From Saprospiraceae bacterium (GTDB lineage Bacteria > Bacteroidota > Bacteroidia > Chitinophagales > Saprospiraceae): DNA of 64,000 bases. The notes beneath the pieces are model-generated. The model was given only the letters and a program-made list of their open reading frames with translations, did no database searches and was not told the origin of the DNA. The stretch is from positions 124,001 through 188,000 of the forward strand of contig JAKVCV010000002.1 of the NCBI GenBank assembly GCA_022448945.1. The letters are read 5' to 3'. Both the position numbers and the translations under genes were made by a program. Below, piece by piece: positions 5,728 through 53,529 of the stretch; within the stretch, counting starts at the first letter, position 1; each line of letters begins with the position of its first letter.

Positions 5728-5735
5728 TATCTTTG
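5728..5735 (+). promoter_or_regulatory. -7 element of the rplS promoter
   Basis: TATCTTTG matches the Bacteroidota -7 consensus TAnnTTTG exactly. It sits 52 nt before the rplS start codon, placing transcription start near 5742. The -33 region is T-rich but has no clean TTTG at the ideal distance. Confidence 0.5.
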
Positions 5736-5786
5736 CGAACAGTTTTAAATGAGTTTACGGAAATTATATAAAAATATAAAAATACA

Positions 5787-47565: not shown

Positions 47566-49311
47566 TTATAAAGGGGTTCTTATTTCTATACGTTTATTTT
47601 GATAGATTATTTTGGGGTAATATGCTTCAAGCCATTTGATCTCATCTATTAATGGTATTCTATCTTCTTTGTCCCATAAAACAGATTCATATATTTTGGA
47701 ATCAACAAAGGGCTTAAAACTTTTACTATCCTTGAAAATCATAGCAGTCTTAAGTTTTTTTCCTGCTCTTAGATAATAACATTCAATTAAGGGTTTATCA
47801 TAATTGGAAAAGAAATAACATTCATTTATTTTATTGCTTAATAATAGTCTGCTTAATTCTATTGCTTGTTTGTCTATAACTGCACTCCAACGGACTGCAT
47901 AATGCACTTCTGTTCTCCAAAAATTAAATATGATTAGTGCTAAAGCGATTGGAATTGCAATTTTGTTTTTGGGAAACATATAACTTCCAAGCAATCCAAT
48001 AAATAAACCTATAAAAAGTGTAATGAAACACCATACACGATAGGGGGGTTGTGTTCCAGTAATAAGATTAAGAAGAGAGGGCAACATTAGGAATAAAATA
48101 GTGATTACAATAGGATTTCTTTTTTTAGGAATATTCCAGTTTTTTATCAATAAAAAAAACAGTAAAAAGGTAGATAATAGAAAAATCCAATATACAGAAG
48201 TTAATCTTCCAGCCCCGAATAGTAACCAATCTGCAACTTTATCCTGATAGGAAATAAATTGTTCACCATGCGGCGCACCATCAGAAGCAATGTGCATAAG
48301 TATTTCAAAACCATTTGTTATAAAAAAAGAAAAATATAGTATACTTGTAAAAAGTACTACCACTAGGTTTGATGTAATCCAACTTTTGAAAGTTTCAAAT
48401 TTTTGAATCAAAACACTAATAAATAATACACAATTAAAGATTATTAATACATAGATATGTGTGGGGACACTATATATGCCTAAAATGTTTGCTATTGACC
48501 ATATTGTCCAATAATAATTATTATTATTCGATAAGACTTTAAGTGTTGCCCACAGGTTAATAATAGTAAAAAGCAATTGCAATATGTACCCTCTGGCATA
48601 CATCGAATAAAAAACAATCCCTGGAGAAAAAGCAAACCAAGCCAAAGCTACTAATGCCCATCGCCACCCACAAATGCTTCGTATTAGATAATAAAAGAAA
48701 AAGCAAGTTACAATGCCTACCAAATAAACAGGTAATCTAAGGGTGTACTTAGCTTCCAGTGGTAAATAATCTGTAATGCAAGCGAAAAGACTATACAAAA
48801 TGTGATTGTTATTTGGACTAATGGCAGACACAATAAATCCTTTAGATATAAAATGATTGTATGTCCATGCTTCATCGTATTGTAATTCATAAGAGTAGAT
48901 TTGCCAAAACCCTCTTAGGGCAAAAGCAATCAAAATAGTATATAAGATAAGTTTTTCTTCCTTATTTGTTTTTTGGATTTGAACAGTTAGTGTGTTTTTG
49001 GTTTTTATTATAAACTCATTGATTATTCTACTGAAATACAATATCTTATTATGAAGCCAATAAGTACAAAGGGTCCAAATAACAATACTAATGAGGATTA
49101 TATATTTCATTGATTTAAATCGTTGAGGAGGGAGTACAGATTCCTCAAAATAGGATTGAAACGCTTGTTTATCACTCAGGTCAAGTACTATATTTGCAAA
49201 CGAGTTGTAATCAATTGACCAAAGCCATATACTAGTGCCCCAAATGCAAAACCCTATTATTGCCCATGCAGCCAATAATAGGATTTTTATACGTAAGACG
49301 GAGTTTGCCAT
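47566..49311 (-). CDS. GT39-type membrane glycosyltransferase
   Basis: A 581-residue polytopic inner-membrane protein of the PMT/ArnT-like (GT39, GT-C fold) class, with a dozen or so helices. The first periplasmic loop carries the catalytic Asp-Glu pair: Asp146-Glu147 in ELQYDEAWTYNHF. The expected ISPNNNHILYSLF segment follows. The pair usually sits near residue 50-60. Here about 90 extra residues, including two helices and a soluble loop (DKQAFQSYFEES), come first. It would transfer a sugar from a polyprenyl-phosphate donor in the periplasm; the acceptor is unknown. Its ATG overlaps by one base the stop of the PspB-like gene upstream, indicating translational coupling. Confidence 0.85.
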   Translation of the reverse strand: MANSVLRIKILLLAAWAIIGFCIWGTSIWLWSIDYNSFANIVLDLSDKQAFQSYFEESVLPPQRFKSMKYIILISIVIWTLCTYWLHNKILYFSRIINEFIIKTKNTLTVQIQKTNKEEKLILYTILIAFALRGFWQIYSYELQYDEAWTYNHFISKGFIVSAISPNNNHILYSLFACITDYLPLEAKYTLRLPVYLVGIVTCFFFYYLIRSICGWRWALVALAWFAFSPGIVFYSMYARGYILQLLFTIINLWATLKVLSNNNNYYWTIWSIANILGIYSVPTHIYVLIIFNCVLFISVLIQKFETFKSWITSNLVVVLFTSILYFSFFITNGFEILMHIASDGAPHGEQFISYQDKVADWLLFGAGRLTSVYWIFLLSTFLLFFLLIKNWNIPKKRNPIVITILFLMLPSLLNLITGTQPPYRVWCFITLFIGLFIGLLGSYMFPKNKIAIPIALALIIFNFWRTEVHYAVRWSAVIDKQAIELSRLLLSNKINECYFFSNYDKPLIECYYLRAGKKLKTAMIFKDSKSFKPFVDSKIYESVLWDKEDRIPLIDEIKWLEAYYPKIIYQNKRIEIRTPL

Positions 49312-49607
49312 TATTTTTTCAAATTCTTAATAATAGATTTTAATTCAGTTAGTTCGGACTTTAGATTAATGGCTTCCCGTCCAGAGCTTTCAGTAAACTT
49401 AGTATCTGTGACAATCATTTCTACATTTGTAAGCCTTTTTTCCAAACTATTTAATTGTTCTTGAACTATAGTAAGCTTGTTCTGTATCTCATTATGTGTT
49501 TTTTCAAGAACTAATTCTTTTTTTAAATTTTTTCTTGATGAACTGATTACAAAACCAGTTATAAGGATAATTATAGTGGCGAGAAATATATAGAATATTG
49601 GATGCAT
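49311..49607 (-). CDS. Small membrane/coiled-coil protein, PspB-like copy 3
   Basis: A 98-residue protein with an N-terminal transmembrane helix (about 4-22) and a charged coiled coil. The segment LNSLEKRLTNVEMIVTD (about 54-69) lines up with the ERLxxIExILxDE core of its two upstream neighbours and of PspB. It is the most diverged of the three and has an extra C-terminal heptad stretch. Its stop codon overlaps the GT39 start by one base, and its start is 2 nt from the end of copy 2. Function inferred only from the resemblance. Confidence 0.75.
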   Translation of the reverse strand: MHPIFYIFLATIIILITGFVISSSRKNLKKELVLEKTHNEIQNKLTIVQEQLNSLEKRLTNVEMIVTDTKFTESSGREAINLKSELTELKSIIKNLKK

Positions 49608-49609
49608 AA

Positions 49610-49894
49610 TTAACGTTTATTTTCTTTATCTAATCGAATTTGCTCTTTTTCGTATTCAAGGTTTATACGTCTATCTTCATCGGTAAGAATATATTCTAGG
49701 TTTTTCAGGCGCTTTTTAATCTCTTCATTCTCAGCCAAAAGGTGACCAATTTGTTTTTTTAGTTCACTACTATTCTCGTTGTAGTTGCTATTCATTTTCA
49801 TTTTTTGCAATTTAATATAATATCCACCCAGGATTGCAGCAAGCGGAACAGAAAAGACCATAATAATAGAAACAAGACTAATTAGAGCTGCCAT
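49610..49894 (-). CDS. Small membrane/coiled-coil protein, PspB-like copy 2
   Basis: A 94-residue protein: a transmembrane helix (about 3-25), a short basic linker, then a coiled coil with AENEEIKKRLKNLEYILTDE. This resembles the conserved core of enterobacterial PspB (RIQALESILDAE). A C-terminal INLEYEKEQIRLDKENK follows that is almost identical to copy 1. The ATG at 49894 is preferred over a TTG three codons earlier. It sits 36 nt after copy 1 and 2 nt before copy 3. PspB in enterobacteria signals envelope stress together with PspC; no PspC domain is seen in this window. Confidence 0.78.
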   Translation of the reverse strand: MAALISLVSIIMVFSVPLAAILGGYYIKLQKMKMNSNYNENSSELKKQIGHLLAENEEIKKRLKNLEYILTDEDRRINLEYEKEQIRLDKENKR

Positions 49895-49930
49895 AAAAAT
49901 CAATTTTGATATTCAGTTGTTGTCAAGGAA

Positions 49931-50197
49931 TCAATCGCGTCCATATTTATTCTTATTGTCTAAACGAATTTGCTCTTTTTCATAATCAAGGTTAATCTGT
50001 TTCTCCTCATCAGATAAAATATATTCTATATTTCTTAAACGTTCTTTTAAATCTTCATTTTCAGCCATTAATTCACTGATTTGAAGTTTGATATCTTTAG
50101 AGGTTGTTCCAATTTTTTTATCCTGTTTAAGTTTTGATTTTTGAAGGTCAAAATAAAATGACCCAATTACTATGATGACGATTGCTGCCCAAAACAT
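49931..50197 (-). CDS. Small membrane/coiled-coil protein, PspB-like copy 1
   Basis: An 88-residue protein with a short N-terminal transmembrane helix (about 2-15), a Lys-rich linker and a coiled coil containing AENEDLKERLRNIEYILSDE. It lines up without gaps with PspB's core helix: the Glu-Arg, Ile-Glu, Ile-Leu and final Glu positions are shared. The 40-residue tail is nearly the same as copy 2, so a recent tandem duplication is likely. It starts 114 nt downstream of the 266-residue orphan gene, probably in the same transcript. Confidence 0.78.
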   Translation of the reverse strand: MFWAAIVIIVIGSFYFDLQKSKLKQDKKIGTTSKDIKLQISELMAENEDLKERLRNIEYILSDEEKQINLDYEKEQIRLDNKNKYGRD

Positions 50198-50311: not shown

Positions 50312-51112
50312 TCAAAAACGACCTAAACGGATATTTGGTATTGATAAAACTACACCATTATTCTTTAAAATTTGTTGAATTAGTCGAAACTCCTGCCATA
50401 AGTCGTTCATTGCACCTTGATTTGAGACTAATCTTTGATATTCTGCGATAATTGGGCTGAATATATTTAGCAACACTTTTGAAGGCAAGTTTTTTTCGTT
50501 TTGCATAGAATAAAGTGTATGGAACCGCATCTTGGGATTTGTGCAGTGATTAGCAAAAGTGATAATAGATTTTTGAATTCCTGAAGGTATTTTAGACAAT
50601 AAATTCATAGCAGCTTTTGCTAATTCAAAATCTGGGTAATTTGCATAAGCATCAATCCTGGACCATAAAGGCTCTAGCTCTCTTCCGAATGGTAGTAATA
50701 AAATTAATAACGATTCTATTATTTCTAGTTCTGAAGAAGCCACTACATCTAATAATTGTTTTAGACGTTCAATTCTTGGGGCTCTTCTAAAATTTTTGAG
50801 TTTAGGGAGTGTTGCTGTATCAATAGTAAATGGTATCCCTTTTTCAAGTTGCTTTACGATTTTACTGTATGCTTTGTTGGGGCAATACCAATTTAGAATT
50901 TGTTGGAGTAAATATAATTGTTCTTCTTTGTTTTTAGAATTTTTAAATTTTTCAATTAAATCATCTACATTTATTTTTGGTTGAACCAAGTAGAACAAGG
51001 CTTTCCTAACATCTCTTTTAGCTTTTTTTGTGAAGATTTCTTTACAGGTGTTTTCTTCAACATCTGGAAATACTTCAATCAAAAACTTTAAATGTATATC
51101 ATATTTGTCCAT
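50312..51112 (-). CDS. Orphan helical protein with a CUE-like N-terminus
   Basis: Not recognised as a family. The 266-residue protein has no signal or membrane segment. Residues 10-45 (FLIEVFPDVEENTCKEIF ... DVRKALFYLV) follow the CUE-domain pattern: a Phe-Pro pair, then a hydrophobic pair 26 residues later preceded by Asp-Val. CUE domains are ubiquitin-binding in eukaryotes, so convergence is likely. The rest is all-helical and could be a HEAT-like repeat solenoid (about 95-250). It is the first gene after the sigma-54 promoter and hairpin, and it heads the PspB-like/GT39 group. Confidence 0.7.
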   Translation of the reverse strand: MDKYDIHLKFLIEVFPDVEENTCKEIFTKKAKRDVRKALFYLVQPKINVDDLIEKFKNSKNKEEQLYLLQQILNWYCPNKAYSKIVKQLEKGIPFTIDTATLPKLKNFRRAPRIERLKQLLDVVASSELEIIESLLILLLPFGRELEPLWSRIDAYANYPDFELAKAAMNLLSKIPSGIQKSIITFANHCTNPKMRFHTLYSMQNEKNLPSKVLLNIFSPIIAEYQRLVSNQGAMNDLWQEFRLIQQILKNNGVVLSIPNIRLGRF

Positions 51113-51170: not shown

Positions 51171-51288
51171 ATTTAATCATTAATCTCTAATTCTAATATT
51201 TATACATTATAAAATGCTGGCAAGAGTGGTTTCAGTCTTTTAGACGGCAGTTTATTCTAAAGGCTTTTAGACCATAAACAAAAACAAT

Positions 51289-51323
51289 AAAAAAAGTCCC
51301 GCCTCTTAAAAAAGAAGCGAGAC
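51289..51323 (-). terminator. Intrinsic terminator or attenuator downstream of the sigma-54 promoter
   Basis: In minus-strand RNA, 12-nt arms (51323-51312 with 51307-51296) pair fully, counting two G-U pairs, around a 4-nt loop, and are followed by seven U (51295-51289). The same DNA read on the + strand has two mismatches and no T tract, so it works only in the minus direction. No minus-strand gene ends just before it. It therefore ends either a small RNA or a leader. Confidence 0.75.
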
Positions 51324-51364
51324 ACACACTATAAGAACACCCAATTAAAACCTTTATTTTTTTA
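51289..51364 (-). ncRNA. Candidate sigma-54-dependent small RNA or attenuated leader (about 76 nt)
   Basis: Bounded by the predicted sigma-54 start near 51364 and the U tract of the hairpin at 51289. The stretch has no ATG and no credible ORF. The 5' part is A/U-rich and single-stranded, followed by a UGUGUGU run and the terminator stem. Either a discrete regulatory RNA or the leader of the operon beginning at 51112. Confidence 0.5.
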
Positions 51365-51373
51365 TTATTAGTA

Positions 51374-51391
51374 TCGCAACATTTGTGCCAA
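51374..51391 (-). promoter_or_regulatory. Sigma-54 (RpoN) promoter, -24/-12 type
   Basis: Minus strand reads TTGGCAC, 5 nt, TTGC (51391-51376). It matches the consensus TGGCAC-N5-TTGC at every fixed base, with the GG and GC at the required 12-nt spacing. Transcription would begin near 51364 and run toward the orphan/PspB-like/GT39 genes. No enhancer site or activator gene was recognised nearby. Confidence 0.75.
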
Positions 51392-51441: not shown

Positions 51442-51480
51442 TTTACTATTCCGCTTCAAATGTTGTATATTTGAGCGAGA
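51442..51480 (+). promoter_or_regulatory. Predicted dnaG promoter
   Basis: TTTA (51442-51445), then TATATTTG (51466-51473), an exact -7 match. Start predicted near 51480, 16 nt before the dnaG ATG. Confidence 0.6.
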
Positions 51481-51495
51481 AAAATAATAGAATTC

Positions 51496-53529
51496 ATGAT
51501 ATCCCAAAAAACAATCCAAACAATATTCGAAACGGTCAAAGTGGAGGATATAATTGAGGATTTTATTAAATTAACACGTAGAGGGGTCAATTATATTGGT
51601 CTATGTCCTTTTCATAACGAGAAGACACCTTCTTTTACTGTTTCTCCTGCAAAGAACATATATAAATGTTTTGGATGCGGAGAGGGTGGGAATGCAGTGA
51701 ATTTTATTATGAATCTGGAGCAAATGACTTATCCTGAAGCATTGCGATATCTTGCAAATAAGTACAATATTGAAGTAGAAGAGGATCAGATGACGGATGA
51801 ACAAATGGCTCAAATAAAACTTTCAGATAGTTTATATGTAGTCAATCAATTTGCACAGGAACATTTCGTGAAACAGTTATTTGAAACTGATTATGGCAAG
51901 GGTGTAGGATTAAGTTATTTTAAACAACGTGGTTTTCGTGAGGAAACCATCAGAAAATTTGGATTGGGTTTCGCCAATGGTGGAGCCAATGATATGATGC
52001 AAGAGGCCCTGCAAAAAGGTTACGAAGAAGAGGTATTGGAAAAAGCAGGATTAATCAAAAATAAGAGAGACTTCTTCAGAAACAGGGTTCAATTCCCAAT
52101 CCATAATGTATCAGGTAAGGTTATAGGCTTTGGTGGCCGTATTCTTACTACTAACAAAAAAGCCCCCAAGTATTTAAACACCCCTGAGTCTGATATTTAT
52201 AATAAGAGAAAATCTCTGTATGGCGTATATTTTGCCCGTAAAGAAATTGTCAAACAGGATGAGTGTTATATGGTAGAAGGATATACCGATGTTATATCTT
52301 TACATCAGGCTGGAATTCAAAATGTAGTTTCTTCTTCAGGTACCTCTCTAACTGCAGAGCAAGTGCAATTGGTTAAACGCTATGCTCCTAATATCACTAT
52401 TTTGTATGATGGTGACAAAGCTGGTGTCAAAGCTGCATTACGTGGTTTGGATATTGTTATCGAACAGGATGTAAATGTCAAAGTTGTTTTGTTGCCAGAA
52501 GGTGAAGACCCTGATTCCTACCTTAAAAAAGTTGGAACAAAAGCATTCAGGGATTATATACAAAATGAAGCTAATGATTTTATATTGTTCAAGATCAATT
52601 TACTTCTAAAGGATTCGGAGGGTGACCCAATTAAAAAGTCAGAAGTACTTAAAGATATTGTTGGTTCTATTTCTAAGATCCCCGATCCTTTAAAACGCTC
52701 AATTTATGTCAAAGAATGTGCTCAGCGTATGGACATGAATGAACAGTTATTGCACAATGAAATTAACAAGAGACTACAAATTAATTTACAAAAAAAGCAG
52801 AAAGAACAAAAAAGAATTAGAAGCAAACACAATGCTTCAGATTATGTAGATCCTTATGCACATATTTCTCATGAAGATCAAAATATGTCTGATTCCGCAA
52901 TTGATTATGAAACAGGTAAAGATTCAACTGGTGAAATCGCTGAGAAAGATGATAATATTATTCAAAAGAGCTCCGATTCATATCAGGAAATTGATATCGT
53001 TCGTATTTTGATCAATTTTGGAGATAAAATAATAGAAGAAAAAACAACTGTTGCAGAATTTATTTTACTTGATCTAATAGATTTGTTTGATTTAGATTTA
53101 TTGAGTGAGTTTGATCATACAATTTGTTCTAAAATTTTTAGCGAATATCTCGAACAATTGAAAGCAAACAAACAAATTGGAAATAATTATTTTGTTAACC
53201 ATAGTGACCCTCAGATTGCAAAATTAGCTGTTGATTTAGTTGCATCTATGGAAGAATATGAGTTTTCTTCTGGGTGGGAAAAATTAAATGTTTTCCTCAA
53301 TACCCAGGTTTTACCCGGAGTTAACCATGTAGCAGATGCTAAAAGTGGTATTTTGAGATTTAAACTTAAAAAGATCGAACGTATGATCTCAAAAAACCAT
53401 AAAGAACTTAAATTGTTGCAATCCAATAATGAAGATACAGATATGTTGATTCTAATGACTGTGCATCAACGATTGATGGACAAAAGAACTGAATTGGCGA
53501 AACAATTAAATACAGTAGTTTTACGGTAG
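51496..53529 (+). CDS. dnaG: DNA primase DnaG
   Basis: Synthesises RNA primers at the replication fork. The 677-residue protein begins with the zinc-binding domain: Cys37 and His40 in CPFHNEKTPSF, Cys58 and Cys61 in YKCFGCGEGG. The primase core follows with FGGRIL and a Toprim domain from about 255 (MVEGYTDVISLHQAG, VSSSGTSLT, LYDGDKAGVKAALRG with the metal-binding DGD, LPEGEDPDSYL). The C-terminal helicase-binding region (about 450-677) is divergent and includes a Ser/Asp-rich linker. The gene is monocistronic here, without rpoD or rpsU. Confidence 0.97.
   Translation: MISQKTIQTIFETVKVEDIIEDFIKLTRRGVNYIGLCPFHNEKTPSFTVSPAKNIYKCFGCGEGGNAVNFIMNLEQMTYPEALRYLANKYNIEVEEDQMTDEQMAQIKLSDSLYVVNQFAQEHFVKQLFETDYGKGVGLSYFKQRGFREETIRKFGLGFANGGANDMMQEALQKGYEEEVLEKAGLIKNKRDFFRNRVQFPIHNVSGKVIGFGGRILTTNKKAPKYLNTPESDIYNKRKSLYGVYFARKEIVKQDECYMVEGYTDVISLHQAGIQNVVSSSGTSLTAEQVQLVKRYAPNITILYDGDKAGVKAALRGLDIVIEQDVNVKVVLLPEGEDPDSYLKKVGTKAFRDYIQNEANDFILFKINLLLKDSEGDPIKKSEVLKDIVGSISKIPDPLKRSIYVKECAQRMDMNEQLLHNEINKRLQINLQKKQKEQKRIRSKHNASDYVDPYAHISHEDQNMSDSAIDYETGKDSTGEIAEKDDNIIQKSSDSYQEIDIVRILINFGDKIIEEKTTVAEFILLDLIDLFDLDLLSEFDHTICSKIFSEYLEQLKANKQIGNNYFVNHSDPQIAKLAVDLVASMEEYEFSSGWEKLNVFLNTQVLPGVNHVADAKSGILRFKLKKIERMISKNHKELKLLQSNNEDTDMLILMTVHQRLMDKRTELAKQLNTVVLR

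Follow-up and report, generated by a model that had tools for sequence, protein, structure and literature searches.

A sigma-54-type promoter element of a Saprospiraceae bacterium, on the minus strand at positions 51376-51391 of the window (the whole 64,000-nt stretch of DNA that was analyzed), most likely serves a small noncoding RNA gene of about 75 nt and not a protein operon, a reading to which we assign a probability of roughly 0.8. The element, TTGGCAC-AAATG-TTGC, was recognized by its motif match and by its conservation within the genus Aureispira. The start of the predicted small RNA (51290-51364, minus strand) was placed 12 nt past the -12 base, the usual distance from a -12 element to the transcription start, and its end in the T tract of an intrinsic terminator. 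This terminator (51289-51323, minus strand) consists of a 12-bp stem with a 4-nt loop (51323-51296) and a tract of seven Ts (51295-51289). The fold of 51285-51365 has a z-score of -4.65, and the terminator hairpin is the sole folded part of the predicted transcript. It is preceded by a leader and a near-invariant core, GGUGUUCU(C/U)AUAGUGUG, which comparison of copies delimits as TTGGGTGTTCTTATAGTGTG (51325-51344, minus strand) with a minimal form GGTGTTCTYATAGTGTG (51325-51341, minus strand). Within the genus, the unit is intergenic, has its own promoter and intrinsic terminator, and holds no conserved ORF, as expected of a trans-acting small RNA gene. Transcription of the unit, the role of sigma-54 in it and pairing of the core with RNA are inferred. 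RNA polymerase with sigma-54 would bind the -24/-12 element; once an enhancer-binding activator fires, leader, core and terminator would be transcribed, with a stop near 51290, and the single-stranded core of 17-20 nt would let the RNA act in trans, base pairing with other RNAs being the most likely mode.

The first-pass annotation of this DNA had reported an exact match to TTGGCAC-N5-TTGC with about 0.03 matches expected by chance, and our counts agree. TTGGCACAAATGTTGC (minus strand, 51391-51376) is the sole exact match to TTGGCACN5TTGC in the window, against an expectation of 0.04 that leaves aside how many motifs a reader could have chosen, and four of 100 dinucleotide shuffles held one. 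Matches to a shorter motif with up to two mismatches were at most slightly above chance in the window (44 vs 35.4 expected, sd 5.2). GG at -25/-24 and TG at -14/-13 at the fixed spacing, by which sigma-54 promoters are defined, are present at the site, as is the C at -12 (GC box).

The 151-bp region around the site matched all eight remaining Aureispira genomes, of which G004 and G008 are near-identical; among 31 further relatives it was matched in two only, by short matches, and that in G022 appears to be a chance one. An alignment of nine distinct Aureispira copies from eight genomes, with G008 left out as a duplicate, revealed a conserved block upstream of the leader, TTGGCA-N-A-N-A-NN-TTG, in which TTGGCA and TTG are invariant and exactly spaced in all nine copies. 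The leader AAAG-N-TTTTAA, nearly the whole core and the terminator arms are also kept, and in G002 two tandem units each carry their own -24/-12 element. Conservation in close relatives, on which the first-pass annotation had staked its promoter, is therefore partial: the unit persists across the genus between diverged flanks and GG and TTG are kept in 9/9 copies, whereas the -12 C is lost in eight and is unique to the copy in the window. Family-wide, this C occurs in 6 of the 20 sigma-54-class copies. A functionless chance match to the consensus could be imagined, with 0.04 matches expected per window and many windows read; given a block upstream of the RNA that is kept in every genus copy amid diverged flanks, it deserves next to no credence.

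Which sigma factor reads the element is a separate matter. In favor of sigma-54, the window's genome encodes one rpoN and four enhancer-binding proteins in which the sigma-54 interaction domain is complete (E<1e-60), plus five weak matches, so that both the sigma factor and its activators were found, and the -24 GG and -12 TTG keep their spacing in 9/9 copies; the -12 C, present in 1/9, is the exception to this conservation. rpoN was also found in 50 of 50 other carriers of the small RNA tested; since every genome tested has it, its co-occurrence is uninformative, and it was discarded as a discriminator between promoter types. The pattern TTGGCAYR-N4-WTG has 18 matches in the window's genome vs nine for the reversed pattern, whose matches were not inspected. 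Intergenic positions were assigned to six of these 18, five of which precede an ORF start by 46-252 nt. Five intergenic TTGGCAYR-N4-TTG sites upstream of ORFs, the one in the window included, carry A, T, A, C or G after TTG, which suggests that the -12 C is relaxed in this genome. The genus-wide excess of the sigma-54 motif is small (85 vs 63 for the reversed control). Overall, we consider the sigma-54 identity of the -24/-12 element likely, not proven.

Another sigma factor, for example sigma-A, might instead transcribe the same small RNA gene, the TTGGCA/TTG block then being a promoter of a different type. Eight of nine genus copies without the -12 C would fit this, as would a sigma-70-like match, TTGGCA-16-AATAAT, that overlaps the site, and TAAGTTTG, a sequence of the TAnnTTTG form that shares positions with the window's -24 box. 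However, GG-N10-TG keeps its geometry without exception, TATGC forms occur in other lineages, most relatives do not retain the TAnnTTTG form (by eye), and the five intergenic sites of the genome point to a relaxed -12 C; we regard a different sigma factor as unlikely, while giving it some weight. At four other loci of the window's genome (L247, L248, L249 and L256), a TTGGCAYA-N4-TTG site lies in intergenic DNA, 46-100 nt ahead of an ORF with a signal-peptide-like start; together these are a possible sigma-54 regulon of surface proteins.

The terminator at 51323-51296, overlooked in the first-pass annotation, lies between the promoter and all downstream ORFs, about 40-70 nt past the inferred start and ahead of any same-strand gene-sized ORF. 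The first such ORF (ORF266, 266 aa; 50312-51112, minus strand) starts 264 nt from the site, lies outside the small RNA unit and has no Pfam match at E<=1. It is to this ORF that the distance of about 250 nt, previously given as that to PspB-like genes, leads; the nearest PspB-like ORF start (50197) is 1.18 kb from the promoter. Both PspB-like ORFs, of 88 aa (49931-50197, minus strand) and 97 aa (49610-49903, minus strand), are likewise outside the unit and score 15.6 and 19.9 bits, respectively, vs the Pfam PspB cut-off of 25.6, and a scan of five downstream ORFs revealed no PspA, no PspC and no cut-off-level PspB. Because the terminator precedes the first ORF, and the PspB-like ORFs are distant and below the cut-off, the promoter most likely serves its own short RNA. 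Tandem small ORFs (88, 97 and 98 aa) at 49311-50197 on the minus strand have a hydrophobic start and a coiled-coil-like rest, two of them being the PspB-like ones below the cut-off; they stay with the 266-aa ORF in G007 (L129).

The enterobacterial psp operon is a sigma-54 system with PspF. The window resembles it in having a sigma-54-type promoter on the same strand as PspB-like ORFs, here sub-threshold, and differs from it in the intervening terminator, the 1.2-kb gap and the lack of a cut-off-level PspB; the proposed tie to a Psp-type operon with shared regulatory logic finds no support here. It is accordingly quite unlikely that the site is a sigma-54 promoter of an operon of ORF266 and the PspB-like genes, as first read, with the terminator as a leaky attenuator. 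ORF266 is on the same strand and only 264 nt off, and the order of ORF266 and PspB-like ORFs also recurs downstream of the unit in G007 (L129). Against this, the terminator in between is strong and the PspB scores are low. Only one other genus genome, G007 (L009, L129, L283), yielded such orthologues of the ORFs downstream, the loci spanning about 1.5 kb on that side in most; the other genus loci have other genes there, and no orthologue of ORF266 or the PspB-like ORFs was found in them. The core-terminator unit is nevertheless retained in all eight other genus genomes, and family-wide the downstream neighbor varies while the upstream dnaG is constant.

The core might also be translated, as a leader peptide (MGVLIV..) of an attenuator. 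It can be read as ATG/TTG/GTG-GGT-GTT-CTN-ATA-GTG because none of the 180 tabulated copies has a core that starts with C, the first base being A, T or G. This highly improbable reading was rejected in view of diverged members that lack a start codon (TTAGGGTG, AAAAAGGTG) or have a stop shortly after it, by 2-nt deletions that shift the frame in L032, L062, L070 and L086, and by a stop codon in L008. Moreover, the wobble positions except that of CTN are nearly fixed (partly by construction, the copies having been chosen by their core), and no constant gene lies downstream.

The predicted small RNA extends well beyond the genus. Searching named genomes for exact matches to TGGGTGTTCTYATAGTGTG gave at least 116 stretches, and among the matches listed, 80 titles were those of Saprospiraceae, Lewinella-like and other Bacteroidota records or metagenome-assembled genomes, the exceptions being one ‘bacterium’ and one archaeon, whose match (L106) lacks the hairpin. 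We take the named genera of the carriers to belong to the family Saprospiraceae. A covariance model of core and terminator, built from 32 copies, matched 56 of 120 Saprospiraceae genomes and 50 of 112 genera. In the order, the 17-nt core was found in 23 of 248 genomes, namely 23/62 Saprospiraceae and 0/186 others; a class-wide scan gave 4/395 genomes, of which G348 (another family, no hairpin) is probably a chance match. Copies are single or tandem, with up to five per array and six matches in one genome. Of 200 distinct copies, 187 have a core followed by hairpin and T run. Two of the other 13 are N-masked, six have a hairpin that lacks a T run and leads on to another hairpin (by eye), and five are without any hairpin (L026, L071, L106, L144, L319). 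The stems vary: each of the six terminator pairs in the model has changed on both sides and is broken in 1-6 of the 32 sequences, and four weak pairs predicted within the core show no such two-sided changes in these 32 sequences.

The neighbor conserved across the family is the divergent dnaG (DNA primase, 677 aa; 51496-53529, plus strand), identified by Pfam and synteny. The core lies divergently upstream of it in 153 of 155 loci holding both, loci that overlap and number several per genome; 60 further loci, many of them short or cut, hold the core without dnaG. Before dnaG, TATATTTG (51466-51473, plus strand) is by motif match its likely -7 element, of the form TAnnTTTG that we take to be the Bacteroidota -7 motif. 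Among 30 loci of the order, of which one was truncated and 29 were read, the core was found upstream of dnaG in L313 alone, a member of the family; the best match elsewhere (12/17) was within the shuffle range. Rfam gave no match at the gathering score in the window or in eight loci; sub-threshold hits to BTnc201 (25.5 bits vs 105) and CyaR were rejected, since what aligned was the terminator plus scattered positions. A separate core class with a longer tail (AAAATTCCAGGGTTTG or AAACTTCCAGGG) was observed beside a PyrR-like phosphoribosyltransferase gene (by eye) in L038, L044, L048, L074 and L133.

Promoters of the family were compared with motifs picked after inspection of the sequences. TGGCAY-N5-TTG was present in 13 of the 180 copies with 130 nt available upstream (control windows 0.2%), and these 13 are all those with the Aureispira/Saprospira leader: nine from Aureispira, one from Saprospira grandis (L069), and L108, L138 and L139. 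An ECF-like motif was found in 18/180 copies (control windows 0.13%). A looser scan of the 187 terminator-bearing copies gave 20 of sigma-54 type, 20 ECF-like (ACTTTT-N-GTCT), five of sigma-A type and 143 with none, one copy falling into two classes (control windows 0.8%, 0.5% and 1.2%, respectively); a promoter of the three types scanned was thus recognized in only 44 copies. The sigma-A type, at 5/187 against a 1.2% background, is unconvincing and was dropped. The -12 C is present in L192, L195, L196 and L198, as TGGCAY-N5-ATGC (TATGC). In Lewinella/Neolewinella-type loci, the ECF-like element stands in place of the sigma-54-type element. From this comparison, the locus beside dnaG appears to have switched between promoters of the sigma-54 type and ECF-like ones. 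A pair of anti-sigma and ECF sigma genes (by eye, no profile run) is convergent to the small RNA in eight loci (L024, L033, L042, L056, L077, L085, L091, L121), and the ECF-like motif was matched in six of them, not in L033 and L085. ECF autoregulation was considered for the Neolewinella-type loci and rejected: the motif is upstream of the small RNA in 10 of 13 loci and nowhere else in those loci, therefore not upstream of the neighboring sigma gene within them.

Seven viral contigs hold the core. L145 and L148 share one stretch, behind tail genes (PHROGs), with core and hairpin; in L145 the core (5729-5745) sits about 5 nt downstream of a tail-fibre (assembly) gene, and this copy is therefore perhaps a 3'UTR-derived RNA. 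Core and hairpin (-19.7 kcal/mol) are likewise found at 4306-4322 of L320, a contig classed as viral, and in L146, where only a DNA methyltransferase was matched among three proteins scanned. The core matches in L144, L147 and L319 look like chance. The GenBank phage and PLSDB plasmid collections gave no match covering >30% of the query.

Searches for targets gave no enrichment of core-like matches with up to three mismatches, either in the window's own genome (7 vs 16 in the control) or in the nine genus genomes (142 vs 210 for the reversed pattern). Being rarer than the reversed pattern in the genus, such matches do not point to a general target class, and no convincing full-length target was found in the own genome. 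A recurrent intergenic element was found whose other strand reads CACACTAYAATAACAYC, with a terminator directly behind. This anti-core element occurs in six of the nine genus genomes (G001, G003, G004, G005, G006 and G008, of which G004 repeats G008; loci L329, L330, L331, L332, L336 and L350), and none was found in the window's own genome at the cut-off of three mismatches. Its copies were joined as one locus by neighbors shared pairwise, namely a threonine-dehydratase-like protein, a 158-162-aa protein and a PAS-like protein (by eye), and ACACACTAYAATAACA is its best-kept block in an alignment of five of the six genomes. The duplex of anti-core and core has one central mismatch; its energy is -17.4 kcal/mol for one 17-nt form and -20.0 kcal/mol for another.

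Of the 142 genus places, 129 were read and gave 126 distinct matches, nine being the small RNA itself. Among the 117 others, a terminator lies right behind the antisense reading in eight (five of them the anti-core element) and behind the sense reading in one, compared with 16/4000 random positions. With up to four mismatches, 9/154 anti-core matches had a terminator behind vs 12/2080 for shuffled anti-cores, at loci pre-picked for such matches. As the orthologues are not independent and the test was post hoc, we treat the association as a lead and the anti-core element as a candidate partner of the small RNA. The two 17-nt elements, each directly before a terminator, are complementary save for one central mismatch, which raises the idea that one RNA sponges the other. 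We offer as a tentative hypothesis that the sigma-54-controlled RNA and the unlinked anti-RNA form a regulatory pair, and that phage copies of the core tap this circuit. In L406, L413 and L343, too, a near-complement of the core was noted immediately ahead of a hairpin, one of them just behind efp (by eye, G002).

Sigma-54-dependent small RNAs, such as Qrr, GlmY and CrcZ, are known from Proteobacteria. Like these, the Saprospiraceae RNA is short and intergenic, with its own -24/-12 promoter and an intrinsic terminator, often in several copies; unlike them, it belongs to another phylum, has another sequence, is dnaG-linked, and apparently differs in promoter type between genera. The closest parallel, as far as the published description goes, is FopS. 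FopS/GibS is a multicopy small RNA family of Bacteroidaceae with a conserved seed, also reported in a Caudovirales phage; the FopS promoter is of the sigma-ABfr type and that of GibS has a PM2 motif, and FopS, which has multiple genomic loci, is bound to RbpB and acts close to the start codon of SusC mRNA to repress it (PMC11697453). Multiple copies in one Bacteroidota family, a shared conserved stretch, phage copies and differing promoter types are common to both. The Saprospiraceae RNA was set apart from FopS by this description: it lies mostly at a dnaG-linked locus or in a tandem array, with sigma-54-type or ECF-like promoters, in contrast to the multiple loci of FopS.

Literature searches did not find the core sequence as text in six written forms, nor anything joining Saprospiraceae, small RNA and sigma-54. 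By titles and abstract openings, Saprospiraceae with noncoding RNA gave a draft-genome note and an unrelated review, and nothing on the core RNA; the main text of a sigma-54 regulon survey, in the part consulted, mentions neither small RNA nor Saprospir- (PMC12316311). The dnaG-linked small RNA family of Saprospiraceae is thus apparently previously unrecorded. What began as a note on a promoter becomes a small RNA family whose 17-nt core is more rigid than either its promoter or its terminator. If the locus beside dnaG has been rewired between promoter types, it would provide a test of how small RNA regulons change their inputs in Bacteroidota, and the possible anti-RNA and the phage-borne copies would offer direct entry points to function.
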